Source: a virus. From it: a stretch of 44,483 nt of DNA. Each line of letters opens with the position of its first letter. The first letter of the stretch is position 1. A program made the position numbers and the translations under genes. The DNA lies in the IMG/VR virus record IMGVR_UViG_3300025117_000116, positions 1 to 44,483 of that record. One strand, written 5' to 3'. This document shows positions 6,872 to 43,940 of this stretch, one piece after another. The notes under the pieces are model-generated. The model made no database searches and was not told the DNA's origin. It saw nothing but the letters and a program-made list of their open reading frames with translations.

Positions 6872-6872
6872 A

Positions 6873-7331: not shown

Positions 7332-7334
7332 ACT

Positions 7335-18617: not shown

Positions 18618-19541
18618 TTAAGTCGTCAAATAACGATATACAGCTTCAGGATAAAATACAGCCGCTCCAACTAGTACCCAAGCATGAATATGCCAATTCA
18701 AAGTACCAACTTCAATATCATCAACCGACTGCATTTCCTGCCACCAACCAAATCTACCAACATCCTGACCAATAACTAGAATGTCCTTAGACGATCCATA
18801 AGATCTTCCATCTGGTCCTTTATAATCCTTATACCCAACAAGAGGAAGACCTTTATAAACACCAAAAGTCCCACGTTTAATGATATCTTCTTTTACCGAT
18901 TCAGGAAAAATATCAAGAGTAGTAGTGCTCTGATTAAACTCCATACACGCAGAAAGAATATTCCTACGTCCAACAATAACCCTAGCCCCGCCAGCCTGAT
19001 CCTCAATTTGATTAATAGCGGTATTTAATGCTGTCTGACTAAAAGCGCCAGTAGCATAATTGCTAAGAGTTGAAGTACTAGGAACAGCAGCTATCATAGT
19101 GTCAAGAGCAATCTTATTGACTTGAGCTTGAATTGCCCTCTGTCCTTTAGATATTTGATCTGCAATCGTGCCATACCTCCCGCTTTGTAACTGTAAAAGA
19201 GGAAGCATAATATGGCAAGAAATCATTTCACTAGAGTATGTAAATTCCTTATTTCTAGGTTGTGTAATTGGAGCATAACTACCAGGTGTATGAATATATG
19301 CTTGGAGTTCTCCATCAAGTTCAAAATATGGTTGTTCATTTACACCATAAGTTTCCTTGGTATAAAGTAGAGATGTCAGATCAGTCTGTTCAACTCGATT
19401 CTGTAATGTCTTTACAACTTGAGTAGCAATAGATCTACGAGCTTCTTGATCCCCATGTATAATATCAGAAACACTAGAAGCAAGAGCCTTACGTAATTCT
19501 ACTGGATCAAATTCTTCATCCTTATCAATTAAATCACTCAT
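18618..19541 (-). CDS. Major capsid protein, HK97 fold
   Basis: 307 residues. The helical N-terminus is followed by an E-loop-like region (residues about 65-105, LDGELQAYIHTPGSY), a spine helix with IADQISKGQRAIQAQVNKIALDT split by a turn, and the A-domain pattern ARVIVGRRNILSACM and FGVYKGLPLVGYKDY. The length suits an HK97-type subunit with a separate scaffold. It follows protease, scaffold and decoration genes, the standard order. A strong GGAGG site lies upstream of 19541. High confidence from order and pattern, although not matched to a named family member. Confidence 0.85.
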   Translation of the reverse strand: MSDLIDKDEEFDPVELRKALASSVSDIIHGDQEARRSIATQVVKTLQNRVEQTDLTSLLYTKETYGVNEQPYFELDGELQAYIHTPGSYAPITQPRNKEFTYSSEMISCHIMLPLLQLQSGRYGTIADQISKGQRAIQAQVNKIALDTMIAAVPSTSTLSNYATGAFSQTALNTAINQIEDQAGGARVIVGRRNILSACMEFNQSTTTLDIFPESVKEDIIKRGTFGVYKGLPLVGYKDYKGPDGRSYGSSKDILVIGQDVGRFGWWQEMQSVDDIEVGTLNWHIHAWVLVGAAVFYPEAVYRYLTT

Positions 19542-22644: not shown

Positions 22645-24483
22645 TTACACTCTACATTCACCAATCCCATTAATTAAGTTTTTATGAAAATCCCCAAGAC
22701 CTTCCAAAACAAGTTCAATTCCTATTTTCTCTGGATATAGTCTTAGAATTTCTAAAAATTTATCTCTTTCCTTTTCTAGAACATTTCTACAACTAGTAGC
22801 TATACCATAATATCCCAGACTTTCATTAATTCTATAAGATAAATCTAAAATTCTTTGAGATTGTCCTATAATATAACTAGTTAATTTTTCTCTATTTTCC
22901 ATTCTATTAGTATGGAGATAACTAGACATGCTAGAAAACACATCATCAAAAATATCATTTTCTGCCCCATTTAGAATTGATTGACTTGACGGCCCCGATG
23001 TTTTTGTTGGATCAAAAGTTTTTTCCTTTTCTTTCTTTTTAATATCGCTCTCTTTTGGCTTACCTTGGTCTGAAGAAGGATCATTTGAAAATGGAAGTTT
23101 AGGATGTATAAATAATTTATCCTCTCCATCTTTAAGAATTTGTTTCTTATTTACAATAATAATATCTGGGTCCCTACCACTTTCACTTAAAGCTGTCCTA
23201 GGATCAATTAACCCTCTATCATAAAAAGACAGAATAAGATTTTTCATTTCTACTTCACTGGTAAGATTCATTCTATCCCAAACTACTACTGGTTTTTTCT
23301 TAATAACAATGTTATTTTGATCTGCTATTTGTATAATAGTATCTTCAATCCAAACTGTAAGGCTTTTTCTCATAGATTGTAAAGTCTCAAGTAGAGCTAT
23401 GAACGAATCCCATACATTACTAGTTGGAGGCCCTCCAATCAAAGGATCTACTGCTCCTAAAGCATACTTCAATTGGGCTACAGCCTGATCATATCTTTTA
23501 TCAAATGAAAGTATTTTCCCATCTGGCCCAACCTGTAAAATATCAACATCATGCGCCCATACTAAATATTTATTTGGATCAACTCCATTTTGTTGCTTAA
23601 GTAGATCGGCAAATTTGTTTAATCTTCCTTGATCGGCTGGAAATGTATCACTGCCAATTCTAAAAACAGTAATTAAATTTATCATACCCTCTAAAGTGGC
23701 ATCATCTAATCTTTGTAACTTAGTCATAATTGAAAGAGGTTTAAAAGTCCTAGTTAAATACGGAATACCCCAATCTTCATAATCCATTGCCTTGCGTTTA
23801 ATATGAGTAACTAATTCTGCATCTAATGGAATATGGGCATTAAATCTAAAACCTATATCTTTAATAGATCTTTTATATTTTCTACGAATCATACTTGGTA
23901 TATTTTTTGTATTTTTATCTTTCCTAGCGTCTTTGATCAAAAGTTTAGCTAAATCGTCATTTACCCTATAAAGTATAGGTTTTGGGCCAAATTGAGAAAT
24001 GGTTTTATCTATAAAAATTCTTTCTGGGTTCAAAAGTGTAACCCTAGTAGGCCATACTTCATTATTTATTAATTGGTATGTTTTTAATGGGAACACATTA
24101 CCAGAAACTAGAAATCCTAAACCCATTCGTTGCATTAAATGATAAATTCCTGGCTCCACCCCGGCCCCAGTGTTAACATTATCAAAAAATTCTTCTATTA
24201 TCTTATCAAGTTTTTTATCGCCAGTTGGCTCAACTCTTAAATTTGTAGTAGCAAAATTATTCATTACATCAATTGTTGTTCCGCTAATTGGATCTAATTT
24301 ATGAATTTTTGAACACGCTAACATAATATCATAAATAGACTCACTATTATAGTCTAGTTCTGAAAGCGTATTCAAAAATGAAAGTGGATCTTTAATAGTG
24401 GAGGGAATCCTATATGCAGTAACAACATGACCATCAACTTGAGAAAGAATATTTAAAGAAGTTTTATCTTCAACTATCTTCAT
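22645..24483 (-). CDS. Portal protein
   Basis: 612 residues. The portal pattern is visible: an N-terminal clip/stem with SGTTIDVMNNFATTNLRVEP, a GNVFPLK turn and NPERIFID, and a helical centre with a DDATLEGMINLITVFRIG element and the crown pattern LETLQSMRKSLTVWIEDTI. The C-terminus is charged, with a flexible Lys/Ser stretch at about 470-500. The portal is the dodecameric DNA gate that docks the terminase. It lies directly downstream of the terminase gene. The start has AGGGG upstream. Confidence 0.88.
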   Translation of the reverse strand: MKIVEDKTSLNILSQVDGHVVTAYRIPSTIKDPLSFLNTLSELDYNSESIYDIMLACSKIHKLDPISGTTIDVMNNFATTNLRVEPTGDKKLDKIIEEFFDNVNTGAGVEPGIYHLMQRMGLGFLVSGNVFPLKTYQLINNEVWPTRVTLLNPERIFIDKTISQFGPKPILYRVNDDLAKLLIKDARKDKNTKNIPSMIRRKYKRSIKDIGFRFNAHIPLDAELVTHIKRKAMDYEDWGIPYLTRTFKPLSIMTKLQRLDDATLEGMINLITVFRIGSDTFPADQGRLNKFADLLKQQNGVDPNKYLVWAHDVDILQVGPDGKILSFDKRYDQAVAQLKYALGAVDPLIGGPPTSNVWDSFIALLETLQSMRKSLTVWIEDTIIQIADQNNIVIKKKPVVVWDRMNLTSEVEMKNLILSFYDRGLIDPRTALSESGRDPDIIIVNKKQILKDGEDKLFIHPKLPFSNDPSSDQGKPKESDIKKKEKEKTFDPTKTSGPSSQSILNGAENDIFDDVFSSMSSYLHTNRMENREKLTSYIIGQSQRILDLSYRINESLGYYGIATSCRNVLEKERDKFLEILRLYPEKIGIELVLEGLGDFHKNLINGIGECRV

Positions 24484-24513
24484 ATCTACCCCTAGTAATG
24501 GTCAAAAATATAT

Positions 24514-26130
24514 TTAAACCCAATTTCCAACTGCTAAACTCTTTTTTTCTGAGTCTTCTATCATTTGATTAATTCCAATTTCATTAGCTGCTAAATTAGC
24601 TAAACCTAGGGCAGTTGCCCGATCTTTCTTTTGTTTAGAACTTGTTGTAAATTTTACATATGGACCAGCACTTTCAGCCCTAAGCATGACTAATTCTTGT
24701 TTTAAATGTATTATATTTTGGCATATTTTTTCTAATCCTATATCAGGATCTCTTCGCCTATCTATTGGCAATTTTAATTTATCATGTTGCATACTTGCTT
24801 TTAATGAATGATACATTAAAGAAATAAATGGTTGAGTAAAGTTTTTCATATATAAAATTTTAAGTCCATTTATATTTTGTAACTCCTTATCTTCTGCGTC
24901 TATAATTGGCGAATGTTTTTTATTAGTTCTTACGTCAATCCAGTTAGTCATTAATAAATCTTTGAGTGCTGCCCCACCACCAGATGCATCCATATAAACA
25001 GCACTTAAGTTAAAATCCTCAATATATATACGTAAAATTTCCGACATAAATTGGAACGACAAACCTGAATCTGCCCAGCAATTTACGACCCTAAAATAAT
25101 TACCATCTATTTTAATAATACATACAGCAAAATTATCGCCTTTTGCCGACCTAGCGACATCAACCCCCATAACATATCTAACTCCTTGAACACCTTGGAG
25201 TTCAACTGGTGAACCTTCAAACACTATAGGTTCACCGCTAATCATTTTAATATATGTTTCTTGTAATGGACTAGGGGTACTTTGTTGTATTAATTGTGGG
25301 GTTATAAATCCATGACTTTCAGTTGGGAATTTGCAATAGTTTTCCATTAAAAATTCTTCTACTGTAGTATTTGGATCATCCTTCATTCTATTTACTAAAT
25401 CCATATCTAGTTCAAATGGGGAATCTTTAGTCATTTTTAAATCATCAATATCAAATTCACACACTGCATATTTAGAGTTTTCTTCCATTTCATAGTATCT
25501 ATAGGAAACATACGTAGAATAAAAATGTCCAAAGGTCCACCAAGCTGTAGAACAAAGTAACATTTTATTATCAATGCCTTTTTTCTTAATATTCATCATT
25601 GGTATTATAACTAATCTAACAACTTGATCATCCATTTGAGCATATTCATCAATTAAAACTACATTATAACGTCTCCCTCTAATCCGATTACCATCACCTA
25701 TCGGCAAACTTTCAATTATAGACCCATTTTTAAACCTTAAAATAGACCTCATATTCCCGCGAACAACATTCCTAGTTTTAACGGAATTTCTTATATATGC
25801 AGAATTATCTAGAAATTCATCAATAAAATCAAGCAAATAATATGTTTGCCTATATGATGGAGCTATAATACCTATTTTAGTTTTTGGATAAAGCATAGCC
25901 CAAAGCACCAAAAGGACTGAACCTAAAAAAGTCTTGCTCAATCCCCTTGAAAAAAGAAAAATAATAAATTTTTTATGCCAGAAAGCCCTAACAGCAATGC
26001 GTTGGAACCATGTAAGATCTATATTGAAGATTTCTTTAATAGCTACGCATGGATTTTCACGATAAAATTCTATTAATCGCTCTGAATCATTTACCCCAAA
26101 CTGCTCTTTAACTGTAAGTCTAGCGTCCAA
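24514..26130 (-). CDS. terL: Terminase large subunit (packaging ATPase/nuclease)
   Basis: 538 residues. Walker A is FSRGLSKT (60-67), Walker B VVLIDEYAQ with DE at 161-162, and a motif III-like LLCSTAWW near 191-198. The C-terminal RNase-H-like nuclease has VMGVDVARS (Asp 324) and VYMDAS (Asp 381). It cuts and pumps DNA into the prohead. The start is a TTG at 26130 with AAGG upstream, two bases after the stop of the small subunit. Very confident. Confidence 0.95.
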   Translation of the reverse strand: MDARLTVKEQFGVNDSERLIEFYRENPCVAIKEIFNIDLTWFQRIAVRAFWHKKFIIFLFSRGLSKTFLGSVLLVLWAMLYPKTKIGIIAPSYRQTYYLLDFIDEFLDNSAYIRNSVKTRNVVRGNMRSILRFKNGSIIESLPIGDGNRIRGRRYNVVLIDEYAQMDDQVVRLVIIPMMNIKKKGIDNKMLLCSTAWWTFGHFYSTYVSYRYYEMEENSKYAVCEFDIDDLKMTKDSPFELDMDLVNRMKDDPNTTVEEFLMENYCKFPTESHGFITPQLIQQSTPSPLQETYIKMISGEPIVFEGSPVELQGVQGVRYVMGVDVARSAKGDNFAVCIIKIDGNYFRVVNCWADSGLSFQFMSEILRIYIEDFNLSAVYMDASGGGAALKDLLMTNWIDVRTNKKHSPIIDAEDKELQNINGLKILYMKNFTQPFISLMYHSLKASMQHDKLKLPIDRRRDPDIGLEKICQNIIHLKQELVMLRAESAGPYVKFTTSSKQKKDRATALGLANLAANEIGINQMIEDSEKKSLAVGNWV

Positions 26131-26131
26131 A

Positions 26132-26899
26132 TTAACCTTTTAAATTAGACCCTGTTGGAAGAACCGGTTTTTCCTTTGTTTGTTCTTCCCTTTTTATTTC
26201 TGGTGATACATTTATAATATCAGTAATAAACGATTCATCCTTAAGAGATTCCATTGGTGGAAGTATATTTTGAGGTTCTTTTTCATTTTTCTTTGCCATA
26301 TAATGAGCTTCTTCATCTTCCCAGTTTTTATTCTGAATTTTTATATGTGCTAATTTTTTATCTAGAGAAGCCGAGAGAGATGCTATATCTCCACCTTCTT
26401 TATCAAGAATATCAGTTCTTTTACCTCTATTAATCCCTAAATTTTTAAGAGCATCTGCCAATCTTTTAGAGGAGTTATTAATTCTATCCTCAATTTCTTG
26501 ATTAAAACCCTTCTTGAGTCTTTCCGCCATACATCTATTATTGATAATTTCTTCAAAAAGAACCTGGCGAATAAGACTTTCATCACTAGAAAGATTAAAA
26601 GCAAAATCATCAATATAAGATTTTCTCCTCTTTCTCCAATATTCTATCTCATCAGTAGATAATTGTGGGAAAATAGGATCATCGCCATCTTCAAATTCTA
26701 TAATCTGTTTTGTTCTGGATGGAGGTTTTTTAAAAAATTTTGCCTGTATTCTATCCTCAATTGTTTTCGGAGCATGACCCCATCCTTTTTCACATTCATC
26801 TAATTTTTTATTAATTAAGTCAAAATCATATCCATCACCTAACTTCTCTGAAAGTAAATGATGCCACTTTTCACGTTCCTCTGGGAGGAGTTTATTCAT
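26132..26899 (-). CDS. Terminase small subunit, putative
   Basis: 255 residues, almost entirely helical and charged, directly upstream of the large subunit. It has a HTH-like N-terminal segment (EREKWHHLLSEKLGDGYDF) and long coiled helices about 85-200. Small subunits are poorly conserved, so the call is positional. The C-terminal 60 residues are Lys/Glu/Pro-rich and may dock the large subunit. The ATG lies in an AT-rich gap with no clear Shine-Dalgarno. Confidence 0.62.
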   Translation of the reverse strand: MNKLLPEEREKWHHLLSEKLGDGYDFDLINKKLDECEKGWGHAPKTIEDRIQAKFFKKPPSRTKQIIEFEDGDDPIFPQLSTDEIEYWRKRRKSYIDDFAFNLSSDESLIRQVLFEEIINNRCMAERLKKGFNQEIEDRINNSSKRLADALKNLGINRGKRTDILDKEGGDIASLSASLDKKLAHIKIQNKNWEDEEAHYMAKKNEKEPQNILPPMESLKDESFITDIINVSPEIKREEQTKEKPVLPTGSNLKG

Positions 26900-26926
26900 A
26901 TATATAATACGTTAAACTAATAGTTT

Positions 26927-28036
26927 TCAATAAGATAGTGGCAATATATGTGTTAACTTGCTGTCTTTTACAATAAAAAACTTGTCAGTAAATGAAACTT
27001 CTAAACTATTTTCCATTTTTTTAATAGCATTAAATAACCCATCAATTATTATTTTAAATTCAAAATCTATAGCCTCAGTTGGCACCGTAACCGACAAACG
27101 GGTTTCGATTGATTTTTCACTATATGCAAGTTTTATAATCATTTTATCTTTTACAATTCTACAACTAGTTATTGGTAACTGTTTACCAGATATAGACTTA
27201 ACCTTTTTTAAGGAATTAAGAAATAAATTATTCTCGACTAATATGCTCTTATTTGGGTAGCTATTAAAGATTTCGCTTACTTTATCAATTGGGTAATCAC
27301 CATTTAAATAAGAGCATACGCAAACTACGTGGTCTAAATCTCCAATATTAAAAGACATTGCAATATTTTTTTCTGTTGGATAAAAAGAAACGGAACATTC
27401 TTCATTAAGTTTTTGAGAAACACTAAACAAAAATAAAGGAATTGGTTTGTCAATATTAATTTGCTTCCCAATATTAAATTTAGACATAATAGAATGATCA
27501 ACACAATATGCGCTACCCTCGTGGAAATAAATAGAATCCAGGCATGAAGGGTTTCTTTTTAATGGAGCAACAACTAAAGATGAATAAAGTTCTTTAACGA
27601 TAGAATTTGGCAACGAAAAAGCAGCCAAATCTGACGTAATATTATCTATTTTTGATAACATTGGGAATGTTAAGTTAAAACTTTGTATGATATATTTATA
27701 TTCTTCTCCTATAATTTCCATTTTTCCGTCAATTATTTTGATATCAATTTCATCATCTAATGTTTTTGAAATCTTTACCATATCTTCAAACAATACCGGA
27801 ATAATAGAGTCATTACAGGTAATTTCCGCGCTATCACAATTGATAATTATTTCTGAAAATCTATTACGCTTGACTAAAAATAATTTACCATCTTCAATCT
27901 TAAAAAATAAAATATCACATTCAGGACTTGAATCCTGTTCTACTGATGCAAGTACATTAATTGCATTAGTTAAAAATCCTTTTGAAAGTTTAATTAAACC
28001 GATGCTCTCCGAGCTTAAGTTTTGCTTTTTTGACAT
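26927..28036 (-). CDS. DNA polymerase sliding clamp, beta (DnaN)-like
   Basis: 369 residues with the three-domain pattern of bacterial beta clamps: the N-domain, a middle domain with the strand SCLDSIYFHEGSAYCVDHS, and a C-terminal domain with NGDYPIDKVSEIFNSYPNKS followed by LFLNSLKKVKSIS. The final strand (SKLTHILPLSY) matches the usual ending. A ring clamp tethers polymerase to DNA and in some phages also activates late transcription. It overlaps the upstream HNH gene by 47 bases and is read from an ATG with GGAGAAAGAGG before it. Sequence similarity appears remote, yet the pattern is consistent. Confidence 0.78.
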   Translation of the reverse strand: MSKKQNLSSESIGLIKLSKGFLTNAINVLASVEQDSSPECDILFFKIEDGKLFLVKRNRFSEIIINCDSAEITCNDSIIPVLFEDMVKISKTLDDEIDIKIIDGKMEIIGEEYKYIIQSFNLTFPMLSKIDNITSDLAAFSLPNSIVKELYSSLVVAPLKRNPSCLDSIYFHEGSAYCVDHSIMSKFNIGKQINIDKPIPLFLFSVSQKLNEECSVSFYPTEKNIAMSFNIGDLDHVVCVCSYLNGDYPIDKVSEIFNSYPNKSILVENNLFLNSLKKVKSISGKQLPITSCRIVKDKMIIKLAYSEKSIETRLSVTVPTEAIDFEFKIIIDGLFNAIKKMENSLEVSFTDKFFIVKDSKLTHILPLSY

Positions 28037-28295
28037 CCTCTTTCTCCTCCCAATATTTTAATGCATTTATCCACCTAAAGTCTTTTCTATTCTCTAGTCT
28101 TTTTAATACCTTAACAATACTCAATGTATAATTATGGATTTTCATATGACATTTAAAACATAAGGTAATCAAATTAGACTCTGTATTATCCAACCCTCTA
28201 CTTCTGTAAACTATATGGTGGACATTAAGATTGTACCCAGTCCCACAAAATTGACACATATTTTTATCCAACTCTCTTATTTTATCTAAATCCAT
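27990..28295 (-). CDS. HNH endonuclease
   Basis: About 101 residues from the ATG at 28295 (a longer version from the TTG at 28322 is possible; neither has a clear Shine-Dalgarno). HNH core: CQFCG, NVHHIVYRSRG with the catalytic His pair, LCFKCHMKIH. Typical of the small phage McrA-like HNH family. It overlaps the clamp start by 47 bases and the HD gene end by 14 bases, so it is embedded in the operon. It could be a homing enzyme or have a role in DNA processing. Confidence 0.85.
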   Translation of the reverse strand: MDLDKIRELDKNMCQFCGTGYNLNVHHIVYRSRGLDNTESNLITLCFKCHMKIHNYTLSIVKVLKRLENRKDFRWINALKYWEEKEDVKKAKLKLGEHRFN

Positions 28296-29040
28296 ATCTA
28301 TATACACGCATAAAAAGTTCAATAAGAGGTTCTAAATATATATAATTTTTTGAACTTGCATATTTGTCTATTGCGGCCAAAATAATAGTAATTAGGCTTA
28401 TCGTCTTATCGTAATTATCTATAATAAATTTTTCTATTGCGTTATCACTCCAATTCTCCCCCCTTTGATAACCTAGCGGTCTCATGTGCGAATGAATCAC
28501 AATTGGGACAATAATATTCAAATTTTTTACTGAAACAAATTCTTCGAAATTTAAACATATATCTTTAGCGTAACTAGCCCCAATACTGGCATGTAATGAC
28601 ACATCATCAACTTTACCAATATCGTGAAGCAACGCCCCAAAATATAATATCTTCCTAACTTCTTCTGAATCTATATTAAAAATACTTCTTTTTAAATCCG
28701 CCAAATTAAATAATAAAAGTATCTCATCTACATGGGTATAACATAAAAGAGAATGCTCCCATAAATTTTTACCAAATTTCTTATCTTGACTTAATAAATG
28801 AATATCTTGGAATTCTGGAATATATTTCTCTAAAAATCCACTTAAATAAATATTGTTTAAGCAATTAAAACTTACTGGATGGCAAATCATTTTTGTTAAA
28901 ATAAATTGCCCAAACAAACGTGAATACTTTGATCCATTATAAATTTCATCCAAAAATTTTTCACATTCTTTAAAAGCCAGAGAATCTGAATCTCTCGCTT
29001 CGAACATTTCTATATATTCATTAATATTAAATATTTTCAT
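28282..29040 (-). CDS. HD-domain phosphohydrolase (resembles the tRNA nucleotidyltransferase HD module)
   Basis: 252 residues. The HD signature is ALLHDIGKV (His-Asp at 139-140) with metal-site partner His 96 in LWEHSLLC and a distal IVIHSHM motif (about 182-188). The stretch preceding WEHS resembles the C-terminal HD module of CCA-adding/poly(A) polymerases, but the nucleotidyltransferase domain is absent. It might hydrolyse nucleotides, cyclic dinucleotides or 2',3'-cyclic ends. It joins the upstream gene by an ATGA overlap. Substrate unknown. Confidence 0.75.
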   Translation of the reverse strand: MKIFNINEYIEMFEARDSDSLAFKECEKFLDEIYNGSKYSRLFGQFILTKMICHPVSFNCLNNIYLSGFLEKYIPEFQDIHLLSQDKKFGKNLWEHSLLCYTHVDEILLLFNLADLKRSIFNIDSEEVRKILYFGALLHDIGKVDDVSLHASIGASYAKDICLNFEEFVSVKNLNIIVPIVIHSHMRPLGYQRGENWSDNAIEKFIIDNYDKTISLITIILAAIDKYASSKNYIYLEPLIELFMRVYRYGFR

Positions 29041-29531
29041 ATAGATTTTAATTGGATTAATTCTTGTTTATTATATGCCAAGATTGTATTTCCAATAAAT
29101 AAACTTTTATCAATTGTATTAAGAATAGCCTTAAGTTTTTCTTTTAAAAAGACAACTCGCAACTTTAAATATATTAATTCTTGTATTGTTACTGATTTGA
29201 ACTCCTTTCCACAAATTACTACTGAAGAAATTTTTCGTTGTCTAGCTCTATCTTCTTTTTCTTTTTGTGTATGCTTCCCCGAATATACACTAGTTGATTT
29301 TTTCGTTTCATTCGCAACCAATTCATTGATAACTTCTGAAAATAAAGATTCAATGTACCCAACATCTGCTCCTAGATTAGAAATATACGAATAAGATGAA
29401 GTGAGTTCTGAAAGTAAATCTTTAAGTTCCCCGCCAAAACTATTATTTTCAATATGCATTGGGATATTAATTAAACTTAAAAATTTGACTATAGATTCGT
29501 CAGATTGAATTGCGTCCAATATGTTTTTCAT
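29037..29531 (-). CDS. Helical protein, unknown function
   Basis: 164 residues in the regulatory block between the HD and sigma genes. The C-terminal half is helical with hydrophobic positions (LIYLKLRVVFLKEKLKAIL); a basic stretch (KEKEDRARQRK) lies at about 90-102. No recognisable family, signal peptide or catalytic motif. It ends with an ATGA overlap to the HD gene, so it is coupled. It could be a clamp- or sigma-associated co-factor, which is speculation. Confidence 0.6.
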   Translation of the reverse strand: MKNILDAIQSDESIVKFLSLINIPMHIENNSFGGELKDLLSELTSSYSYISNLGADVGYIESLFSEVINELVANETKKSTSVYSGKHTQKEKEDRARQRKISSVVICGKEFKSVTIQELIYLKLRVVFLKEKLKAILNTIDKSLFIGNTILAYNKQELIQLKSI

Positions 29532-29977
29532 TATACCCGCGCTGTAGAATTTTTAATTTTTGTCAAAATATACATAACAGACCCTACTGGAATACCGGTG
29601 ATATTGGAAATTTCTTTTACAGAAACATTTGATATGGTTTTTAACTCATAAACTAATCTATATTTCCCGTATAGAGAATTATATTTTTTAGAAATTTCTT
29701 CCGTTGCGTGCTGATAAAGCCCATCACATTGCAACAAAAACATAAACTTATCATCAAGAACTTGTTTTCTTTTAAAATCAATTGCGGCATTAAACGCTAT
29801 ACGCTTTGCCCAATTAACAAATGGACGGCTAGAATCATATAAGTTAATATTTTTAAATATAGTTATAAAAACATTTTGGGTTATATCTTCTGCATCATCT
29901 TTATTGCAAAGAACCCTATAAACACATTGATAAACTTTAGAATAGTTATCTGAAAATAATTTATCTATATCAATCAT
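29531..29977 (-). CDS. ECF-type RNA polymerase sigma factor
   Basis: 148 residues with both ECF domains. Region 2 (residues about 8-72) has NKDDAEDITQNVFITIFKNI and FVNWAKRIAFNAAIDFKR, and region 4 (about 95-145) has KYRLVYELK and the helix-turn-helix VSVKEISNITGIPVGSV. It would redirect host RNA polymerase to phage promoters, likely for the late virion genes downstream. It overlaps the upstream gene by four bases (ATGA). An anti-sigma partner is not evident. Confidence 0.88.
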   Translation of the reverse strand: MIDIDKLFSDNYSKVYQCVYRVLCNKDDAEDITQNVFITIFKNINLYDSSRPFVNWAKRIAFNAAIDFKRKQVLDDKFMFLLQCDGLYQHATEEISKKYNSLYGKYRLVYELKTISNVSVKEISNITGIPVGSVMYILTKIKNSTARV

Positions 29978-30639: not shown

Positions 30640-31599
30640 TTAATGTAACACTTCCTGAATTACTTTATCAATTTGCTCAATTTCTCGCTCAATGGGAAAG
30701 TATTGTTTTACCCATTCTCTATGTAATTCCATTGTTTCTTCCCTGTTGCCACCAAAAATATTATTATTTTCATTCATATATACTTTTTGTGCAACCATCT
30801 GAGGCGTTGTAAATAACGAATGAGATGGGTAAATATTTTCTGCCCCACGCCATGATCTTACCAACGGGAAAACTCCACAAGCCATTCCCTCTAGAATGCT
30901 AAGGTGACATGATTCAAAAATAGAAGATGATAAAATATAGTCACAAGAATTTAACCATTCATTCATATCAGTTTGCCATGATTCAAATTTTAATGGGAAT
31001 CTTACTTTAGACATTGAATTAATAAATTCCAAATGATATCTTAAATCCTGATGTTGTCCCGCCCATACAAAATTTAAATTTGGGCAAGAGTTATATATAG
31101 CATCAAAACAGCACATTGCAAATGAAGGATCTTTTTTATAATTTATATATCCTGCTATTCCAACCCTATTAGTCTTTTTGCGATCTGATTTAATTATAAA
31201 TTTATTGGCATCAATCCCGTGGTAGATTACTTTTATTTTTTTAGATGAAATCGACTGTCTATACCTTAGCATATTGTCAAGACTATGATTTACTAGAATC
31301 AATTTATCAATATTATCCCAATTTACATAATCAGTATAACCTTCAAAAAACTCATAACTATGAAGTCTTGTAATAATCTTCCCAGTTTTTAAGCCCCTAC
31401 TCATCTCTATCAATGTTGGATCAGCCCAATCTATAAATGTTATGTCGCTATCTCTAATTTGTTCAAGTAAATCCATATACTTTTCATTATTTTTAAGATC
31501 TACCCCAAAAGCAGTACGGACGTTATATTTTTGTGAAAAAATATCTATAAATGGGCGAATAAATACTGGGTCTGATGCTATAAACAACACACTATACAT
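30640..31599 (-). CDS. Glycosyltransferase, GT-B fold (family 4-like)
   Basis: 319 residues. The second Rossmann domain carries VIYHGIDANKF, GIAGYINYKKD and the FESCHLSILEGMACG motif (about residues 233-247) that binds the sugar nucleotide in GT4 enzymes. There is no signal peptide or membrane helix, so it acts in the cytoplasm. It overlaps the WecB-like gene by eight bases. Substrate unknown; the cassette suggests a surface polysaccharide or virion glycan. Confidence 0.82.
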   Translation of the reverse strand: MYSVLFIASDPVFIRPFIDIFSQKYNVRTAFGVDLKNNEKYMDLLEQIRDSDITFIDWADPTLIEMSRGLKTGKIITRLHSYEFFEGYTDYVNWDNIDKLILVNHSLDNMLRYRQSISSKKIKVIYHGIDANKFIIKSDRKKTNRVGIAGYINYKKDPSFAMCCFDAIYNSCPNLNFVWAGQHQDLRYHLEFINSMSKVRFPLKFESWQTDMNEWLNSCDYILSSSIFESCHLSILEGMACGVFPLVRSWRGAENIYPSHSLFTTPQMVAQKVYMNENNNIFGGNREETMELHREWVKQYFPIEREIEQIDKVIQEVLH

Positions 31600-32668
31600 T
31601 AAATTCCTTCCTCATATATTCCGCAATTCTTTGAGAAGATTTTCCGTCCCAAAATCTAATATTAGATATTGGCTTGTCAATAAATTCATTATATTCATAA
31701 TTGTCATAATTAATTTTAGATAAGTCATTGCAAATAAAATTACTCCCGCATTCTACTGTCGATGGTCGTTCAGTCGCTTCCATAACAGTTATACATTTAA
31801 CTTTTAACGATGCACACTCTTCCTGAACGCCCCCACTATCTGTTATAACTAAATCTGAGAAAATTATAGAGTTTATAAAATCTTTATAATTCATTGGTTT
31901 TAAAATTTTAATAAGTGGGAATATATTATTTAATCTTATTCCAAGTTTATTATTCCAATTATTCATAGTTCTAGGGTGAATTGGGAATAAAACTTTTCTT
32001 GTGTCAGCAATTCTTGAAACATTATTTAAAATACTAAATAACTTACCATTATCGTCAACATTTTCTGGCCGATGCAAAGTAAGTAATAAAAATGCCTTTG
32101 TTTCTTTTCTAACAAAGTCTACATTATCACAATAATTCATTAAAGAATCTATCATTGTATTCCCAATTAATATTCCAGAAAGACTCTCATTTCTTAGATT
32201 TTTTATACCAGATTCTTCAGTACAAAACCTATATCTGCTTAATGCATCTACAACTATTCTATTATATTCTTCACGTTGTCCTTTAATAAAACTTCTCAAT
32301 CCAGCTTCAACATGAGCAACTGGGATATTGCATTTATAAGATGCTTTTGCTGCATATAAAGTGGTATTACAGTCCCCAAATACAACAGAAAAAATTGGGA
32401 AAGAATTTTTATAAAAACTAACTTCATGTAATAATTTAAATAAAAAATCTTGAAATAATTCTTCATTAAATTCTTTGATCCCTAAATTATAGTCTATTTC
32501 TATCCCCAAAGATTCTCTAAATTTTTCTCCTAATTCTTTATGCATAGAGTGCTGCCCAGAATCAATCACTATGCAAGTAAAATATTTATTTAATTCTTCA
32601 ATCAAAGGCGCGGCCTTTGTATAATTAGGCCGAGTACCTACGAACAATAATATGGCTGGTTTATTCAT
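31592..32668 (-). CDS. UDP-N-acetylglucosamine 2-epimerase (WecB-like)
   Basis: About 358 residues from the ATG at 32668 (AAAGGTGAAAGCT upstream; a GTG nine bases earlier is in frame). Signature segments: LFVGTRPNYTKAAPL, HVEAGLRS, LLTLHRPENVDD, TDSGGVQEE. WecB-type enzymes interconvert UDP-GlcNAc and UDP-ManNAc, precursors of enterobacterial-type surface sugars. The usual GTRPE is GTRPN here, a conservative variation. Supplies substrate for the neighbouring transferases. Confidence 0.88.
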   Translation of the reverse strand: MNKPAILLFVGTRPNYTKAAPLIEELNKYFTCIVIDSGQHSMHKELGEKFRESLGIEIDYNLGIKEFNEELFQDFLFKLLHEVSFYKNSFPIFSVVFGDCNTTLYAAKASYKCNIPVAHVEAGLRSFIKGQREEYNRIVVDALSRYRFCTEESGIKNLRNESLSGILIGNTMIDSLMNYCDNVDFVRKETKAFLLLTLHRPENVDDNGKLFSILNNVSRIADTRKVLFPIHPRTMNNWNNKLGIRLNNIFPLIKILKPMNYKDFINSIIFSDLVITDSGGVQEECASLKVKCITVMEATERPSTVECGSNFICNDLSKINYDNYEYNEFIDKPISNIRFWDGKSSQRIAEYMRKEFNV

Positions 32669-32942
32669 AGCTTTCACCTTTCATAATTCTATTGCGATGA
32701 TTCTTGCTATCAATCCTTAATCCGCAAACATCACAATTGATCTCTTTCCTAATAGTGTCTTCAGCAGAAAAAACTCCATGGCCGTTACAGTCAGTTTTAG
32801 GGCATTTTATAACCACCGCTACAACAATTCTAGGCTCTTTTAATATAAATAAAAATGGATCAAGAGATGTTTTTATATCTCTTAAAATATCTAGTTCATA
32901 TCCCTGGATTATTTCTAGAGAATCTTTAAATTCGTATCTCAT
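32661..32942 (-). CDS. Small zinc-ribbon protein, unknown
   Basis: 93 residues with two Cys pairs: CPKTDC and CDVCGL, about 25 residues apart, forming a likely zinc ribbon. The N-terminal 45 residues are charged, with a hydrophobic strand (IVVAVVIK). The start has AAAAGGTGAT upstream and it sits between the two sugar-modifying genes. No function recognised. Confidence 0.6.
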   Translation of the reverse strand: MRYEFKDSLEIIQGYELDILRDIKTSLDPFLFILKEPRIVVAVVIKCPKTDCNGHGVFSAEDTIRKEINCDVCGLRIDSKNHRNRIMKGESYE

Positions 32943-32952
32943 TTATCACCTT

Positions 32953-33942
32953 TTATGAAATCTTTATTAATGCCCTATTCAATTTATATTCTTTAATCAT
33001 CCAATTTAAAGTTAAAGGAATACCTTTCAACAAGAATATAGAGGGATCATGATTTAAAATTGTTTTAGCTTTCTCAATACCAGGTCGTTTACAAACTGTA
33101 TTATGTCCATCTTTTTCTAACATTGTTACAACAGATCGACAATATGGAATATTAGTTTTAATAATGCTATACATGTTTTCAATTGAACAATATTCTTCCC
33201 CCCCTATATTAATAACATTTTTATTTAAAAGTTCCCAATTTATTTCTGGTATTCTACAAAGTGTAATAATAAGATCATCTATGTGCATAAATACGCGATA
33301 ATAATCTCTATAAATTGTTATAGGTAAATTATAAAGCATTCTATAACAAAATAAACAAACTACACTGCGATAGTTAGTATAAAATTCTCCTTTGCCATAG
33401 GCGTTAAATAAGCGAACCCTAAAAATATTTAATCTTGGGTTTTCTTTTTGCGCGTTAATAATTTGTTTTTCGTTAACCCATTTAGTAATGGCGTAATCAT
33501 TATGTTGAATTACAGAATATTTAAGCATATCATCTTCATGAAGTATTCCATCAGGAGTTGTAAGCTCGCCATAAACCTCGCTGGAACTAAAAAAAATAAC
33601 CTTTGATTTAACATCATGTGTTTGAATAATGCTAAGTAAATTCTTTATACCAATAACATTAGTTTCCCACAAACGCTCATAAAAATCTTCGCCATTCATG
33701 CGCCCAAATTCAGCAGCCAGAACATATATATAATCATAATTATGAAGAAGCAAAATATTTTCTAGTTCTCTATATTTAGAGATATCGCATCTTGTAAATC
33801 CTTCAATATTGGCATATTGTGTGACCAATAAATCATGATTATGTTTTAAATCTGATGTAAATACAGTATGCCCTTTAGCTTTTAAACTTTCGACTAATGG
33901 TTTACCAATTGTTCCTTCACTCCCTATAACCAATATTACCAT
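32953..33942 (-). CDS. NAD-dependent sugar epimerase/dehydratase (extended SDR)
   Basis: 329 residues. The N-terminal Rossmann fold has VIGSEGTIGK (GxxGxxG at 7-13), and the catalytic set is SSS at 119-121 with YAITK (Tyr 150, Lys 154). Family members epimerise or dehydrate NDP-sugars such as UDP-Glc, UDP-GlcNAc or GDP-Man. It probably makes an unusual sugar for the cassette. TAGGAG lies upstream of the ATG. Confidence 0.85.
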   Translation of the reverse strand: MVILVIGSEGTIGKPLVESLKAKGHTVFTSDLKHNHDLLVTQYANIEGFTRCDISKYRELENILLLHNYDYIYVLAAEFGRMNGEDFYERLWETNVIGIKNLLSIIQTHDVKSKVIFFSSSEVYGELTTPDGILHEDDMLKYSVIQHNDYAITKWVNEKQIINAQKENPRLNIFRVRLFNAYGKGEFYTNYRSVVCLFCYRMLYNLPITIYRDYYRVFMHIDDLIITLCRIPEINWELLNKNVINIGGEEYCSIENMYSIIKTNIPYCRSVVTMLEKDGHNTVCKRPGIEKAKTILNHDPSIFLLKGIPLTLNWMIKEYKLNRALIKIS

Positions 33943-33949
33943 AATTCTC

Positions 33950-34837
33950 CTATAATGGGAAAAGCAACATTACAAAATCACATAATGCATAAAATTTTAA
34001 CCCTTTACGATTTATTATATTTTGCATCGTTCTTTCCCATTGACAACATGTTTCATAACCATTCGATGATGCTTTTGGGGCTAAATAATCTTCATTATAT
34101 GAAATATTTTTTAACGGGAAAATAGCTAATGATGTTGTAACTTGATTATTATAATCCTCTACCCCCTCTATTCCTCTAATCTTATGTGGATACATTGGAC
34201 ATGCCCCCCCACTTGGCTTATGTTTTAAATATGTATCAATAAATTCTCTTCCAATATTATAATCATACCAATATAATGGACGCCCAATTTTTATACTTTC
34301 AGATAATTCCCCATAAAACTCAAAACCTTTTTGGTCCCTCAAAAATCTCGATATACCGACATCTGAATATAAACTTAATATATGAGGCTTTGTGCAAACA
34401 TCAAATGAAAATTTATTTACAATTCCAACTTTGTCAATTAAATCTTTATTAAATGGCTTATAATTATTATGATCTACATATTCTACCCTATCAATAACTC
34501 CATTATTGACCCAAAAATTTAATATCTCCATATATTTAAATTCAGTTTTTAACTCATCAATAACTAAAATCTTTTCTGTAAAAAATTTAAACTGCATTAA
34601 AGATATGAAAATATTATATGCATTCCAAAGAAAATCCCCATTATAGGTTTTAATAACTAAAGACATTTCCTCATATTTTTTAAACTTAATATTATTATTA
34701 GAAGCTAAAAATTCTTCAAACATATTAATTAATATATTTTCATCATATAAATCAAGAATTTCTATTACTTCTAAGGGTAAAACACGCAAAAATCCAGGGA
34801 GACTATTTTTTAATTTTATGTCTCTGCATGGCCCCAT
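33950..34837 (-). CDS. Protein of unknown function in the glycan cassette
   Basis: 295 residues, cytoplasmic, with no signal peptide. It has GISRFLRDQKGF, a GGACPMYPHK Cys-containing loop and a CCQWE pair in the last quarter. Some secondary structure resembles sugar-handling enzymes, but no family fits by eye. It begins with a TAATG overlap on the upstream gene and is eight bases from the SDR gene. It may be an unrecognised glycosyltransferase or transferase partner; that is inference. Confidence 0.6.
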   Translation of the reverse strand: MGPCRDIKLKNSLPGFLRVLPLEVIEILDLYDENILINMFEEFLASNNNIKFKKYEEMSLVIKTYNGDFLWNAYNIFISLMQFKFFTEKILVIDELKTEFKYMEILNFWVNNGVIDRVEYVDHNNYKPFNKDLIDKVGIVNKFSFDVCTKPHILSLYSDVGISRFLRDQKGFEFYGELSESIKIGRPLYWYDYNIGREFIDTYLKHKPSGGACPMYPHKIRGIEGVEDYNNQVTTSLAIFPLKNISYNEDYLAPKASSNGYETCCQWERTMQNIINRKGLKFYALCDFVMLLFPL

Positions 34838-35070
34838 TACATTTTCAATTTTCTAAAAATATTTGAATTACCATTTTTAATTGACTGGCTAAACATTTCA
34901 TCTAACTCGTCAATCAGGTTATTTCTCTGAAAATTAGCTTCCACAACTCTATCAGCAGCCTTTAATCTTTCACAATCAGAAAGAAGTTTATCTTTTTGGC
35001 AATCTATCGAATGCCATATTTTTAGATTAACAATAATAAGTTGATCAATAATCCCAGCTATAGTTTGCAT
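34837..35070 (-). CDS. Small helical protein, unknown
   Basis: About 77 residues from the ATG at 35070 (GGGGAGATA upstream; a longer reading to 35109 lacks a site). The ATG shares an A with the stop of the dockerin-like gene. Helical and charged, ending RKLKM. No signature; the coupling suggests it is real. Confidence 0.55.
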   Translation of the reverse strand: MQTIAGIIDQLIIVNLKIWHSIDCQKDKLLSDCERLKAADRVVEANFQRNNLIDELDEMFSQSIKNGNSNIFRKLKM

Positions 35071-35654
35071 TATCTCCCCATACAATAATTTAACTGCCCT
35101 AACCCCCAAGATTTATCTGCAAGATAATTAGCTATAATTATTAAATCAAATACATCAATAGAACAGTCTCCATTCAAATCTGCTACAATAGAATCCTTTA
35201 TTTGAGATCCTGAAAAAATATAATCTTGCAATAACCTTAAATCAACTATATCAACCTTAAAATTAGCATCAAGATCACCTAAAAATCTAAAATAAACTCT
35301 AGTTGACCTCCATGGATTAAAAACAATAGGAGTTATAGTCTCTATTTCTCCGCAAAGATAAATCAATTCCGAGTAAAAACGAATCGTATCGCCATACCTG
35401 GCCCCATCTTTATATGAGGTTGTCCAATCATCCCCAACAACGTGAATTAACATCTTACCATTTTTAAATATTCTAGTATAACCGCAAACAATCTCTCCTA
35501 CTTTACAGGTTACAAGTAAATTGTCATTAAACCAATCACCTTGTGCCCAATAATTTGCAACAACCGGGGTAATACGATAGTTTGTGTCGCATTGAGAATG
35601 CGATATTTGTGTTAACCCCAATGTTAACAAAATTAATAATATAAAAGTTTTCAT
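35070..35654 (-). CDS. Secreted protein with C-terminal dockerin-like calcium-binding repeat
   Basis: About 194 residues from the ATG at 35654 with GAGGGGG upstream. Residues 1-21 are a Sec signal peptide (MKTFILLILLTLGLTQISHS then QC); no classical lipobox. Residues about 25-120 form an unknown beta domain with paired Cys. Residues about 125-180 contain two dockerin/EF-type loops: GDLDANFKVDIVD and ADLNGDCSIDVFD, each with the D-x-N/D-x-D spacing. Bacterial dockerins bind cohesins; here it may be a secreted or surface-attached calcium protein. I know of no common phage role. Confidence 0.8.
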   Translation of the reverse strand: MKTFILLILLTLGLTQISHSQCDTNYRITPVVANYWAQGDWFNDNLLVTCKVGEIVCGYTRIFKNGKMLIHVVGDDWTTSYKDGARYGDTIRFYSELIYLCGEIETITPIVFNPWRSTRVYFRFLGDLDANFKVDIVDLRLLQDYIFSGSQIKDSIVADLNGDCSIDVFDLIIIANYLADKSWGLGQLNYCMGR

Positions 35655-35700
35655 ACGCCCCCTCATACTTTATACGTGTATATCCAAATTTCGTTTGAAA

Positions 35701-37284
35701 TTAATTTCCAGATTCCAAAATTTCTTTATGGTGATGATAGACACAAATTTGCATATCCTTAAATAACGAACATGAATTACAAATTATACCAGGTTGTAAC
35801 CCAAATTCAACCGACCTCCCCCCCCGTAATTTTGACTCTATCATGGTAGAAACTTGTTCCACCTTTATTTCACTAACTGGTATCATCTCACGTTCTTTAA
35901 TAACTCCACACCAATAATGCCTAAAATGCCATAAAAACTTATGGTCTGTAATAGGAGGCTTAATAAAACTTATATTATCATTATTCCCAAATAAATGCCT
36001 ATACCTAGATGGAGGTAATACACATTTATCGGGGATTCCAGCCCAAACTGACTCATTATTTATTTCTTGTGAATTTAGAACTATTATTGGGACGCTAGTC
36101 ATAGGCCAAATCATGGCCGAAACCGATGTACTTATTGACACTAGTAAATCACAATATTGGGACATATATATTTGTTCTATAGCATTTAATTCACCAATTT
36201 CAAAAACATTTGGTAAATTAAATTTAGGATATGGTATATCTTTTGGACCATAAAAAGCAATAAACTTTATATCAGGCATTGATTTACAAAGCTCATAATA
36301 ATTATCAAAACCCCACCCACTTATTTCATACGGAAGGGACATATGTGGGCGACATGAATCTATAAAAATTGCAACTATAGTCCTTAAATTATTATCTATA
36401 AATTTTACAAAATCTTGATTATACTTAATTATGCCAGAATATTTCTCTATTTTTTTAATAGGAATATTTGCCGCTAATCCATTAGCTCTCATTTTTCCCC
36501 AAACTTTTGGATTATCTTTAATCCCATAAACCCATGGTTTCCATTTAGCATCAACATCAAAAGATTCTGATAAAACAAAAACATCTTTTGGAATTTTGAC
36601 GAGATTGTTAATTATCCCATCAATCCCATTTGCCACGCTAAATAACTTTTTTTCGATATCGTTGTTATAAACCATTTTAACTTTTTTGTTTGGATAATAA
36701 TATTTAAAAACTAAAGCTATAGGATAAGTTAAAAGTCTGTCACCAAAAACCTTTGCTTTATTGTTTATCCATATTTCATTATATTTAGACAGATTAATAA
36801 TCTTTTTTCTACAACTAACTCGAATATTTTGATCATTCTCATCCCCATATGAAAACTTAAATTCAAATCCAGCATTAGTTAAAGCAAACGCAAGAGTACT
36901 TACATCAAATATGTTGTTATGATAGTTGCCCTTATATTCTTGTCCGCCATATAAAAAATTAATTATTTTACGTCTATTATTTATATCCCCACTGCCGGAA
37001 TATTCTTCATTAAATTGTTTAATAATCCACAATAAATTTGGAGTTTCAAGTAAAAGTTCGCCATCTGGTTTGAGAATCCTCCACCAGTTGTATAGAACAT
37101 ATGGGACTTCATGATGTGGAAAATGTTCAATAACATGATGGGCTATTACAGTAGAGCAAGATTCATCTTCGATTGATTTAAGTGTAGAAATATCTTCAAC
37201 TATATCAGTAGTATTAAGTTTTCTAAAATCTACCGATAAAAACCCCTCTATTTCTCTATTTCCCGCGCCTAAATTTAATTTCAT
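35701..37284 (-). CDS. SAM methyltransferase fused to a glycosyltransferase-like domain
   Basis: 527 residues. The N-terminus is a class I methyltransferase (type 11): LNLGAGNREIEGFLSVD (motif I), DESCSTVIAHHVIEH and ILKPDGELLLETPN. From about residue 190 a second domain follows, with a GT-B-like pattern of ADP-heptose-transferase type: IVAIFIDSCRPH, IKFIAFYGPKD, CDLLVSISTSVSAMIWPMTSVPIIVLN. The C-terminus has several Cys/His (CNSCSLFKDMQICVYHHH). It probably transfers and methylates a sugar. The start has GTAGGAG upstream. Confidence 0.75.
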   Translation of the reverse strand: MKLNLGAGNREIEGFLSVDFRKLNTTDIVEDISTLKSIEDESCSTVIAHHVIEHFPHHEVPYVLYNWWRILKPDGELLLETPNLLWIIKQFNEEYSGSGDINNRRKIINFLYGGQEYKGNYHNNIFDVSTLAFALTNAGFEFKFSYGDENDQNIRVSCRKKIINLSKYNEIWINNKAKVFGDRLLTYPIALVFKYYYPNKKVKMVYNNDIEKKLFSVANGIDGIINNLVKIPKDVFVLSESFDVDAKWKPWVYGIKDNPKVWGKMRANGLAANIPIKKIEKYSGIIKYNQDFVKFIDNNLRTIVAIFIDSCRPHMSLPYEISGWGFDNYYELCKSMPDIKFIAFYGPKDIPYPKFNLPNVFEIGELNAIEQIYMSQYCDLLVSISTSVSAMIWPMTSVPIIVLNSQEINNESVWAGIPDKCVLPPSRYRHLFGNNDNISFIKPPITDHKFLWHFRHYWCGVIKEREMIPVSEIKVEQVSTMIESKLRGGRSVEFGLQPGIICNSCSLFKDMQICVYHHHKEILESGN

Positions 37285-37291
37285 TGTTCTC

Positions 37292-37750
37292 CTACGGTTT
37301 ATAGCAAATAAATACTATCTCTGGACAATAACTAAATTGTTCATAGCAATCAAAATTAACAAATTTATTAAAAATATTAAACAATTTATCTTTATAAATG
37401 CCTTGCTTATGGTAATCATAAGCGTGTGTATGGTTGGCATATAAATAACAATCTAACCAGTTTATATCTAGTTGTTTATTATATTCAGAAATAGCACCTT
37501 CAAAAGAGGGACAAACTGAATAAAATTTCCCACCGCTTTGTAAAATTCTAAAAGATTCATTTGCAAATTGTTTAAGTTCATTTTTATCTAGATGCTCAAT
37601 TAAATGTGAGCAATAAATCTCTTCTACTGAATTATCTCCTAATCCAGTTTGTAAACATGAAGCCAATATATCTGGTTCCTTGTCTGGGCAAATATCTAAG
37701 TTTAGATATCCATCCATCCTTATAACCCCAGACCCAATATTTAATTTCAT
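37292..37750 (-). CDS. Small SAM-dependent methyltransferase (type 11)
   Basis: 152 residues. Motif I-like LNIGSGVIRMDGYLNLD, then DNSVEEIYCSHLIEHL and FRILQSGGKFYSV, close in pattern to the N-terminal domain of the 527-residue neighbour, so these two may be paralogues. It joins the GT2 gene by an ATGA overlap. It probably methylates a sugar or lipid-linked intermediate. Confidence 0.78.
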   Translation of the reverse strand: MKLNIGSGVIRMDGYLNLDICPDKEPDILASCLQTGLGDNSVEEIYCSHLIEHLDKNELKQFANESFRILQSGGKFYSVCPSFEGAISEYNKQLDINWLDCYLYANHTHAYDYHKQGIYKDKLFNIFNKFVNFDCYEQFSYCPEIVFICYKP

Positions 37751-38544
37751 ATTAACTCCTTTAATATTTTTTGCTGCAAATTATAGCAATTTTCCATTTC
37801 TTCTTTAATGTCCTTTCTATCAATTTTCTTGCTAAACCAAATATCTTTTGTTTCAAATAAAACCGAGGTCTCTTTAAATAGGGGAGTCATCCAATCTATA
37901 GTGGAATTTTTTTTATAGTATTTTAACTTATTTAAAAGATTTTCATAATTAACTGAACTATAATGCAATAGCGGTAAACCTGTAATTAAAGTATTTTCAT
38001 CGCAGATAGATTTAGGCCACAAAATATTATGGAATCCAGGCCTAGAAATAATCTTGTCACGATCATCGTGCATCCACATCCTGGGTGGGGATAGACGACT
38101 TAACTGATCAGCCTTGCTATAGCCCTCCGAAAACCATAAATTAACCCATTTAAATTTTAATGCTTTTAAAATATGTTTTTTTAAATAACTTATTAATATT
38201 TCAAGATAATTTCTGGTAAAATAATATGGTAAAAGTTCATCAAAATCAAATGAAATAATAAAATCTGGGGCCATCTGCCTAACTGACTTATAAAGTTTAA
38301 TTTTATTGCCAACCTCGTTCCCACTTTGCCACGAGTTTTTACGATTTTTTATAATTTGATCATCTTTGCGAAGATTGAAATAAATTCTATCAAATGTATT
38401 ATCAGTGGAACAATCATCTAAGAAAATAATCCTATCGCATAATCCTTTATAAAAGTCTACAACCTTTTCAAAAAAAACTGGAGAAATTTTATCACACCTA
38501 GTTGACTCATTATAAATCTGGCACATACCTATAACATTAGGCAT
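37747..38544 (-). CDS. Glycosyltransferase family 2-like
   Basis: 265 residues with a GT-A core: opening strand NVIGMCQIYNE, nucleotide loop DDCSTDNTFD, and a metal-binding FDFDE acidic motif (about residue 98-102), seen in GT2 enzymes that act near Leloir donors. The C-terminal half is basic. It lacks a membrane segment, so it is probably soluble. It overlaps the next gene by eight bases. Confidence 0.78.
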   Translation of the reverse strand: MPNVIGMCQIYNESTRCDKISPVFFEKVVDFYKGLCDRIIFLDDCSTDNTFDRIYFNLRKDDQIIKNRKNSWQSGNEVGNKIKLYKSVRQMAPDFIISFDFDELLPYYFTRNYLEILISYLKKHILKALKFKWVNLWFSEGYSKADQLSRLSPPRMWMHDDRDKIISRPGFHNILWPKSICDENTLITGLPLLHYSSVNYENLLNKLKYYKKNSTIDWMTPLFKETSVLFETKDIWFSKKIDRKDIKEEMENCYNLQQKILKELI

Positions 38545-39586: not shown

Positions 39587-40389
39587 TCATTTCCTTTAAC
39601 TATAAATTTTTGAAACATATCTGTTAATTCCCATGTCTTCTGTTTAATAAAATCTTCCTGTGAGTATAGAAACTGAGTTCGCCCTTTATGCTCTCTTCTA
39701 CTCATTAATGATTGCGGAACTATTGCTATATTTTTTATATTGCTATTATGAGCCATCCTTAACCATTGACTAAAATCCTGAATAAACTTATACTGTTCAT
39801 TAAACGGCCCAACCTCATCAAATAAAATTTTCTCAAAAATAAAACAACACCCGTTATATTGGCAAGATCTTCTGTGCAGGCATTTAATTAAAGAATCTTT
39901 AAATTCTTTAATATCAACTAATCTAGGTTGTTGGGCAATTGTAATATTTTCTGGAATAGGCGGTTTATACTGTGCTATTCCCTTTAGATTGTCATCCTTG
40001 TCATAAATAATTTCTGTATATCCTGAATAAGATATCTTACAATTCAAATTATTCAAAGCAAAAATATGTGTTTCTAAAAATTCAGGATAAAAGAAATCGT
40101 CCGAACTCAACCATGAAAAATATTTAAATTTTGGATTCGAAAATCTAATGCCATCATTTAACGCACAAGCCGTCCCACCATTTTCCCCTCTAACGTGAAC
40201 CTTAAAATTAATATTCCCCTTATCAAAAATAAATCCTGAAACATCTGGGGGAATATCTCCATCTTCTACAATAACAATCTCAATCGGAATTTTGCCTATA
40301 CATGTTTGATTTAAAATAGACTTTACCGCACAGTGCAGATATTCTTTTTTTTGTTTATAAGTGGGAATTATTATTGAAACACCGTTCAT
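39583..40389 (-). CDS. Glycosyltransferase family 2
   Basis: 268 residues with the classic GT2 N-terminus: VSIIIPTYKQKKEYLHCAVKSILNQ, IEIVIVEDGD, GTACALNDGI and the DxD-type WLSSDDFF (about 93-100). The C-terminal part has FNEQYKFIQDFSQWLRMA, the acceptor-side motif. It is the first gene in transcription order of the glycan cassette, with CTAGGATAATT upstream. Confidence 0.9.
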   Translation of the reverse strand: MNGVSIIIPTYKQKKEYLHCAVKSILNQTCIGKIPIEIVIVEDGDIPPDVSGFIFDKGNINFKVHVRGENGGTACALNDGIRFSNPKFKYFSWLSSDDFFYPEFLETHIFALNNLNCKISYSGYTEIIYDKDDNLKGIAQYKPPIPENITIAQQPRLVDIKEFKDSLIKCLHRRSCQYNGCCFIFEKILFDEVGPFNEQYKFIQDFSQWLRMAHNSNIKNIAIVPQSLMSRREHKGRTQFLYSQEDFIKQKTWELTDMFQKFIVKGNE

Positions 40390-41754: not shown

Positions 41755-41759
41755 TTTAC

Positions 41760-43841: not shown

Positions 43842-43885
43842 AGTTTCCTTTTTCTAATTCTTTCCAAGTCGGTTTTCCAAATAAA

Positions 43886-43909: not shown

Positions 43910-43940
43910 AAAAGCCCCCTTAGCCGCCCTTGCCAGACAA

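Follow-up and report, generated by a model that had tools for sequence, protein, structure and literature searches.

A DnaN-type sliding clamp and a compact ECF-type sigma factor are encoded ahead of the terminase genes in a group of related viral contigs, and we favor, at a probability of about 0.58, the reading that this is a late-gene sigma that ends a replication/recombination operon and is translationally coupled to the clamp. The starting point was a 44,483-base IMG/VR fragment (record IMGVR_UViG_3300025117_000116; hereafter the window), in which nearly all long open reading frames (ORFs) lie on the minus strand, from 43.8 kb to 2.9 kb. The window most likely belongs to the late arm of a phage from an uncultivated lineage; near relatives of that lineage carry genomes of about 100–117 kb. 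Relatives were recruited through terminase and portal alignments, and seven lineages besides the window carry both clamp and sigma: L007 (111,438 bases; record G001), L008 (58,196 bases), L045 (117,395 bases; record G007), L093 (103,045 bases; record G010), L098, L091 and L095. Two further contigs, L090 and L092, are nearly identical in sequence to L091. Single-sequence searches of viral contigs with the clamp and sigma gave no match, nor did a search of genome contigs with the large terminase (TerL). A second IMG/VR contig (L002; 25,644 bases) has an identical TerL fragment; it starts within TerL and so does not reach the clamp–sigma region.

In transcription order, the window's minus strand encodes a glycosyltransferase at the upstream end of the run considered here (30640–31599), a 216-aa unknown protein, the ECF-type sigma (148 aa, regions 2 and 4; 29531–29977), a 164-aa UvsY-like protein (29037–29531), an HD-domain phosphohydrolase (252 aa; 28282–29040; PF01966, 5.3e-8), an HNH endonuclease (110 aa; 27990–28322; PF01844, 1.3e-11) whose gene overlaps the clamp start, and the divergent clamp itself (369 aa; 26927–28036). 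These are followed by a small-terminase-like protein (255 aa; 26132–26899), TerL (24514–26130; PF17289, 6.5e-9; phrog_2, 8.6e-30), the portal protein (22645–24483; phrog_16240, 3e-15; relatives, 3e-103), a prohead protein and the major capsid protein (18618–19541; phrog_2522, 7e-9; relatives, 6.5e-63). The small-terminase-like protein (TerS) is assigned by position: its homologues stand immediately before TerL in L007, L008, L003 and L009 (E-values of 7e-27 to 2e-11). Its ATG has no evident ribosome-binding site (window 26900–26926); L008 has a GGAGG site there.

The first-pass annotation had placed a clamp and a sigma upstream of the terminase, and both ORFs are indeed present on the minus strand with TerS and TerL downstream. 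It had further described one coupled operon with two unknown proteins. Consistent with this, the genes from sigma to clamp form one run with overlaps of 1–47 nt at their junctions, but the HNH gene had been overlooked and both supposedly unknown proteins can be named, one as UvsY-like and the other as an HD-domain protein. In L007, the HD protein is similar to the HD portion of tRNA nucleotidyltransferases (phrog_2244, 1.8e-12).

Several other features of these genomes were recorded. Upstream of the sigma and on its strand, window positions 30640–40389 hold a long series of sugar-nucleotide, glycosyltransferase and methyltransferase genes, probably for glycosylation of the virion or of DNA, the order of which is partly kept in records G007 and G002. 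Within or beside this run are a dockerin type I repeat protein (35070–35666; PF00404, 1.6e-6) and a patatin-like phospholipase (40780–41769; PF01734, 1.7e-24). An HNH/endonuclease VII-like protein, likely a homing endonuclease, lies amid the virion genes (7335–8102; phrog_374, 1.4e-39). Large, intein-like internal insertions are seen in the ribonucleotide reductases of L008 (892–3858; 988 aa) and L045 (1401–4349; 982 aa), compared with 708 aa in L007, and in the TerL of L009 (8516–11389; 957 aa).

For validation, profiles were built from the relatives only, with the window left out, and searched against 108 window ORFs. The expected window ORF ranked first for the clamp (7.5e-7; n = 7), the sigma (4.7e-8; profile of seven relatives' late-position sigmas), the UvsY-like protein (1.9e-9; n = 6) and the HD protein (5e-22), and runner-up ORFs scored 0.014 or worse (0.26 for the clamp profile).

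The window sigma is ECF-type by its own sequence, being a short protein with only regions 2 and 4. It matches Pfam Sigma70_r2 (1.3e-13) and r4_2 (1.9e-4) as well as phrog_1740 (1.5e-14), and it aligns with SigW from the PDB over both regions (5e-16). The relatives' sigmas likewise align with phrog_1740 over both regions, with weaker scores. Among the relatives' proteins it matches the late-position sigma of G001 best (E = 0.0018), which rules out that it is a displaced early-arm sigma. A second sigma-like gene lies beyond the late arm in G001 (6862–7401, plus strand), G007 (4161–4661, plus strand) and G002 (43863–44342, plus strand). This gene has no detectable relation to the late-position sigma, and the two sigmas of these three genomes possibly form a cascade.

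Identification of the window clamp is secure because of the relatives' profiles; from its own sequence it would be insecure. Alone, it matches phrog_947 at 8.7e-5 and nothing in Pfam or the PDB, and its AlphaFold2 model (pLDDT 34) is too low in confidence for a reading of the fold. The relatives' clamps match phrog_947 singly at 2e-19 to 3e-28, and an eight-member clamp profile that includes the window, searched against the PDB, hits bacterial beta clamps (4e-17). The likeness to bacterial DnaN (phrog_947, PF00712) thus spans nearly the full bacterial length, but the clamps described here are highly divergent: the window clamp is 14–20% identical to the others, those of L045 and L008 share 32%, and no match is detectable among 50,697 named phage records. 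They also differ from bacterial DnaN at the C-terminal end, where all seven relatives have QFF plus a short tail and the window clamp has a different sequence. In bacterial clamps, the C-terminal end borders the protein-binding cleft.

All three relatives longer than 100 kb encode a C-family DNA polymerase (phrog_405; 3e-280 in G001, 5e-256 in G007 and 3e-295 in G010). The polymerase lies on the opposite strand, in the other arm, 43–50 kb from the clamp (polymerase and clamp at 35400–38405 and 87513–88610 in G001, at 100341–104309 and 48830–49930 in G007, and at 24129–27188 and about 70–71 kb in G010). The polymerase arm of G001 also encodes DnaB, primase, RecU and two clamp-loader-type proteins; five records yielded no B-family polymerase. 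The phage's own polymerase gene falls beyond the ends of the 44.5-kb window. Because the relatives encode this polymerase, the clamp can be given an ordinary role in replication. The unusual feature is the location of the clamp gene: with the sigma and recombination genes, away from the polymerase. The first-pass annotation had listed, as evidence against its proposal of replication-coupled late transcription, a phage polymerase to which the clamp could be attributed, and such a polymerase is encoded by each of these three relatives. It accounts for the existence of the clamp, yet a second role in transcription is still compatible with it, because T4 gp45 has both roles.

The 164-aa protein had been put forward as a possible transcriptional co-activator, a suggestion that its predicted fold does not support. 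An AlphaFold2 model made from a five-sequence alignment (pLDDT 85) has T4 UvsY, a recombination mediator, as its best Foldseek match in the PDB (4zwt; probability 1.00, TM (target) 0.76, E = 0.12), and further UvsY chains are plentiful among its top 50 PDB structure matches. Weak Foldseek E-values are expected because the protein is small and helical. A viral library also returned UvsY, along with other recombination proteins. The likeness to T4 UvsY lies in the predicted fold and not in the sequence, which is about 10% identical and gave nothing significant against UvsY in the PDB. We conclude from the model that the protein is most likely a UvsY-like recombination mediator, and on the strength of the predicted fold we rejected it as an unlikely gp33-like co-activator.

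We observed the order clamp, sigma, TerS, TerL in all seven lineages besides the window, and this recurrence confirms that the clamp–sigma module is above chance. The usual operon of the clade encodes ribonucleotide reductase, the UvsY-like protein, HD, HNH, clamp and sigma, and the terminase and virion genes come next. The UvsY-like, HD and HNH genes lie upstream of the clamp in the relatives as far as the contigs reach, with an HNH gene in the equivalent place in L007, L008 and L045. The clamp stop overlaps the sigma start in five of the seven lineages, by 1 nt in L007, L008, L045 and L098 and by 4 nt in L093; the exceptions are L095, with a 123-nt gap, and L091, with a DNA methyltransferase gene between the two. 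Genes intervening between HD and HNH differ by lineage, and the clamp–sigma–TerS series is unbroken by such turnover. The window is the sole exception to the order: its sigma precedes the UvsY-like gene, at the site occupied by ribonucleotide reductase in the relatives. The coupling of clamp and sigma proposed from the window thus concerns two real genes that are linked more tightly in the relatives, but the window itself separates them. In L009 and L003, a sigma-like or region-4-like protein is encoded just ahead of TerS, and no clamp was seen in these contigs.

A stable hairpin with a T-run is present between sigma and TerS in five lineages: L007, L008, L045 and L009 (z = -2.4, -6.0, -4.8 and -8.6, respectively) and L098. 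Where present, it fits a sigma that ends one transcript and a TerS that starts the next. The window lacks this hairpin, and none could be clearly recognized in L003, L091, L093 or L095.

The checks proposed at first pass for shared late promoters and for clamp-binding peptides both came back empty. No shared promoter motif was found ahead of the window's late genes, and canonical clamp-binding peptides (QL[SD]LF class) are absent from the sigmas and the UvsY-like proteins. In G002, a 23-base element, AAAAA(T/G)GCTGTATGTATA(A/T)TAGA, occurs upstream of TerS (15067, minus strand) and of the prohead gene (10107, minus strand) with two mismatches between the copies, and its core is matched at 14 of 17 positions at TerS in G007. 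This candidate late promoter is only a lead, because the TerS copies in G002 and G007 are also the 5' arm of a terminator-like hairpin and because the count of shared 16-mers (5) falls within the Markov null (maximum 6). Nothing comparable was found in the window or G001.

A motif in the linker between sigma regions 2 and 4, Q-x-x-F-E-x-x-F (with M as the last residue once), is present in all seven clamp-linked sigmas, and its Q, F and E make up three of their eight fully invariant columns. The motif is altered in the window sigma (KQVLDDKF) and lost in L009, where no clamp was seen. The window, in which the two genes are apart, thus differs both in the QxxFE motif and in the QFF end of the clamp. 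We regard this co-variation as weak evidence of contact, since there are two exceptions only, overall divergence is higher in the window proteins and the phage polymerases lack QxxFE. The absence of QxxFE from the polymerases also rules it out as a motif shared by sigma and polymerase. A scan of four genomes for the pattern Q..FE..[FM] returned three sigmas and, from the glycosylation run, one unrelated protein.

T4 gp55 is related to sigma70 through domain 2 only, lacks the region-4 domain and carries at its C-terminus a hydrophobic-acidic clamp-binding motif common to the polymerase and gp33 (PMC2988020, PMC7892883), and clamp-activated late transcription has been reviewed as peculiar to T4-related phages (PMC2988020). 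The system described here resembles that of gp55, gp33 and gp45 in that a phage-encoded replication clamp is paired with a phage sigma that has a region-2 domain, the likely target being the virion genes. However, region 4 is present in this sigma and a clamp-binding tail is missing, the clamp belongs to the DnaN type rather than the gp45 type, and the candidate co-activator is UvsY-like. Among nine sigmas there is no conserved C-terminal tail, the ends after region 4 being short and variable, and no peptide was seen to be shared between the sigmas and the C-terminal regions of the polymerases. No gp33-like protein was found among those of the relatives' small proteins that were scanned, which are part of the total. 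The T4 late-promoter core TATAAATA was dropped as a late promoter, as it has no excess on the late strand (late versus other strand: 9 versus 11 in the window, 24 versus 30 in G001, 6 versus 10 in G002 and 14 versus 42 in G007). The clamp–sigma system is therefore not a member of the T4 type. These missing marks lower the case for a T4-like system and leave the case for one that could work like T4 where it was.

Two other phage groups offer partial parallels. The Slashvirus Bacillus phage Stills (KP696448) has homologous TerL, portal and capsid proteins, and some 4 kb before its TerL is a gene annotated as an ECF sigma. However, phrog_947 finds no clamp across the 80.8-kb record G006, whose sigma coordinates are those of Stills, and the sigma of Stills is not the same protein and is longer. 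The sigma-W-type factors of crAss-like phages (phrog_1740) belong to the same broad compact ECF-like family, with near full-length matches at 25–31% identity. In the one neighborhood inspected, that of cr4_1, the arrangement differs: neither a clamp nor a terminase is annotated within 6 kb of the sigma, and this sigma has no QxxFE linker motif.

In the reading that we favor, the clamp would be the processivity factor of the C-family polymerase that the phage itself encodes, and the sigma, once the clamp–sigma operon is expressed, would direct the RNA polymerase of the host to the virion operon. The overlap of the two genes would cause both proteins to be made together, so that a late-gene sigma would appear alongside the replication apparatus. 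The specificity of the sigma for late genes, and its timing, are what we infer here. This reading is favored by the clamp–sigma–TerS–TerL order in seven lineages, by the overlap of clamp and sigma in five, by the remote polymerase and by the hairpins between sigma and TerS; the second sigma also fits a cascade, and a sigma or region-4-like protein stands before TerS even without a clamp (L009 and L003). Counted against it are the window, with neither adjacency nor hairpin and no shared late promoter, and the four contigs with no clear hairpin before TerS. Much of the same evidence could be read as a T4-like mechanism built from other parts, in which a DnaN-type clamp, loaded during replication, would bind the ECF-type sigma of the RNA polymerase holoenzyme and switch on late promoters, such that late transcription would depend on replication. 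The seven-lineage order, the overlap in five and the remote polymerase suit this too, as do the invariant QxxFE of clamp-linked sigmas, altered in the window and lost in L009, and the QFF end of their clamps, which the window clamp lacks. We nonetheless consider it unlikely: the sigma has no clamp-binding tail or QL[SD]LF-type peptide, QxxFE is absent from the polymerases and may instead have a function for RNA polymerase, the putative co-activator is UvsY-like, TATAAATA is unenriched and the window keeps clamp and sigma apart. By the same token, it is doubtful that replication-coupled late transcription has arisen a second time, outside the T4-related phages, by way of a two-domain ECF sigma and a DnaN-type clamp that touch through the QxxFE linker and a remodeled clamp C-terminal end.

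The arrangement might instead be inherited gene order only, in a clade with a syntenic late arm where clamp and sigma share just a transcript. The order of glycosyltransferase genes, NrdJ, UvsY-like, HD, HNH, TerS, TerL and portal is also constant, an inserted gene is tolerated between clamp and sigma in L091, and the window sigma sits elsewhere in the run. Though a serious competitor, this is in our view quite unlikely, given that clamp–sigma–TerS persists while HD–HNH genes change by lineage and the clamps themselves have diverged. A sigma for non-late targets, such as middle genes or host take-over, would fit the window's lack of an identified late promoter and the second sigma of the relatives, but it seems very improbable when a sigma or region-4-like protein directly precedes TerS even where no clamp is visible.

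These results provide annotation for a phage lineage whose clamp lacks detectable matches in named phages. T4 is the known case of a replication clamp that turns on late genes, and a conserved clamp–sigma pair found in phages unrelated to T4, where the clamp gene is remote from that of its polymerase, may serve as a test bed for repeated linkage of late transcription to replication.
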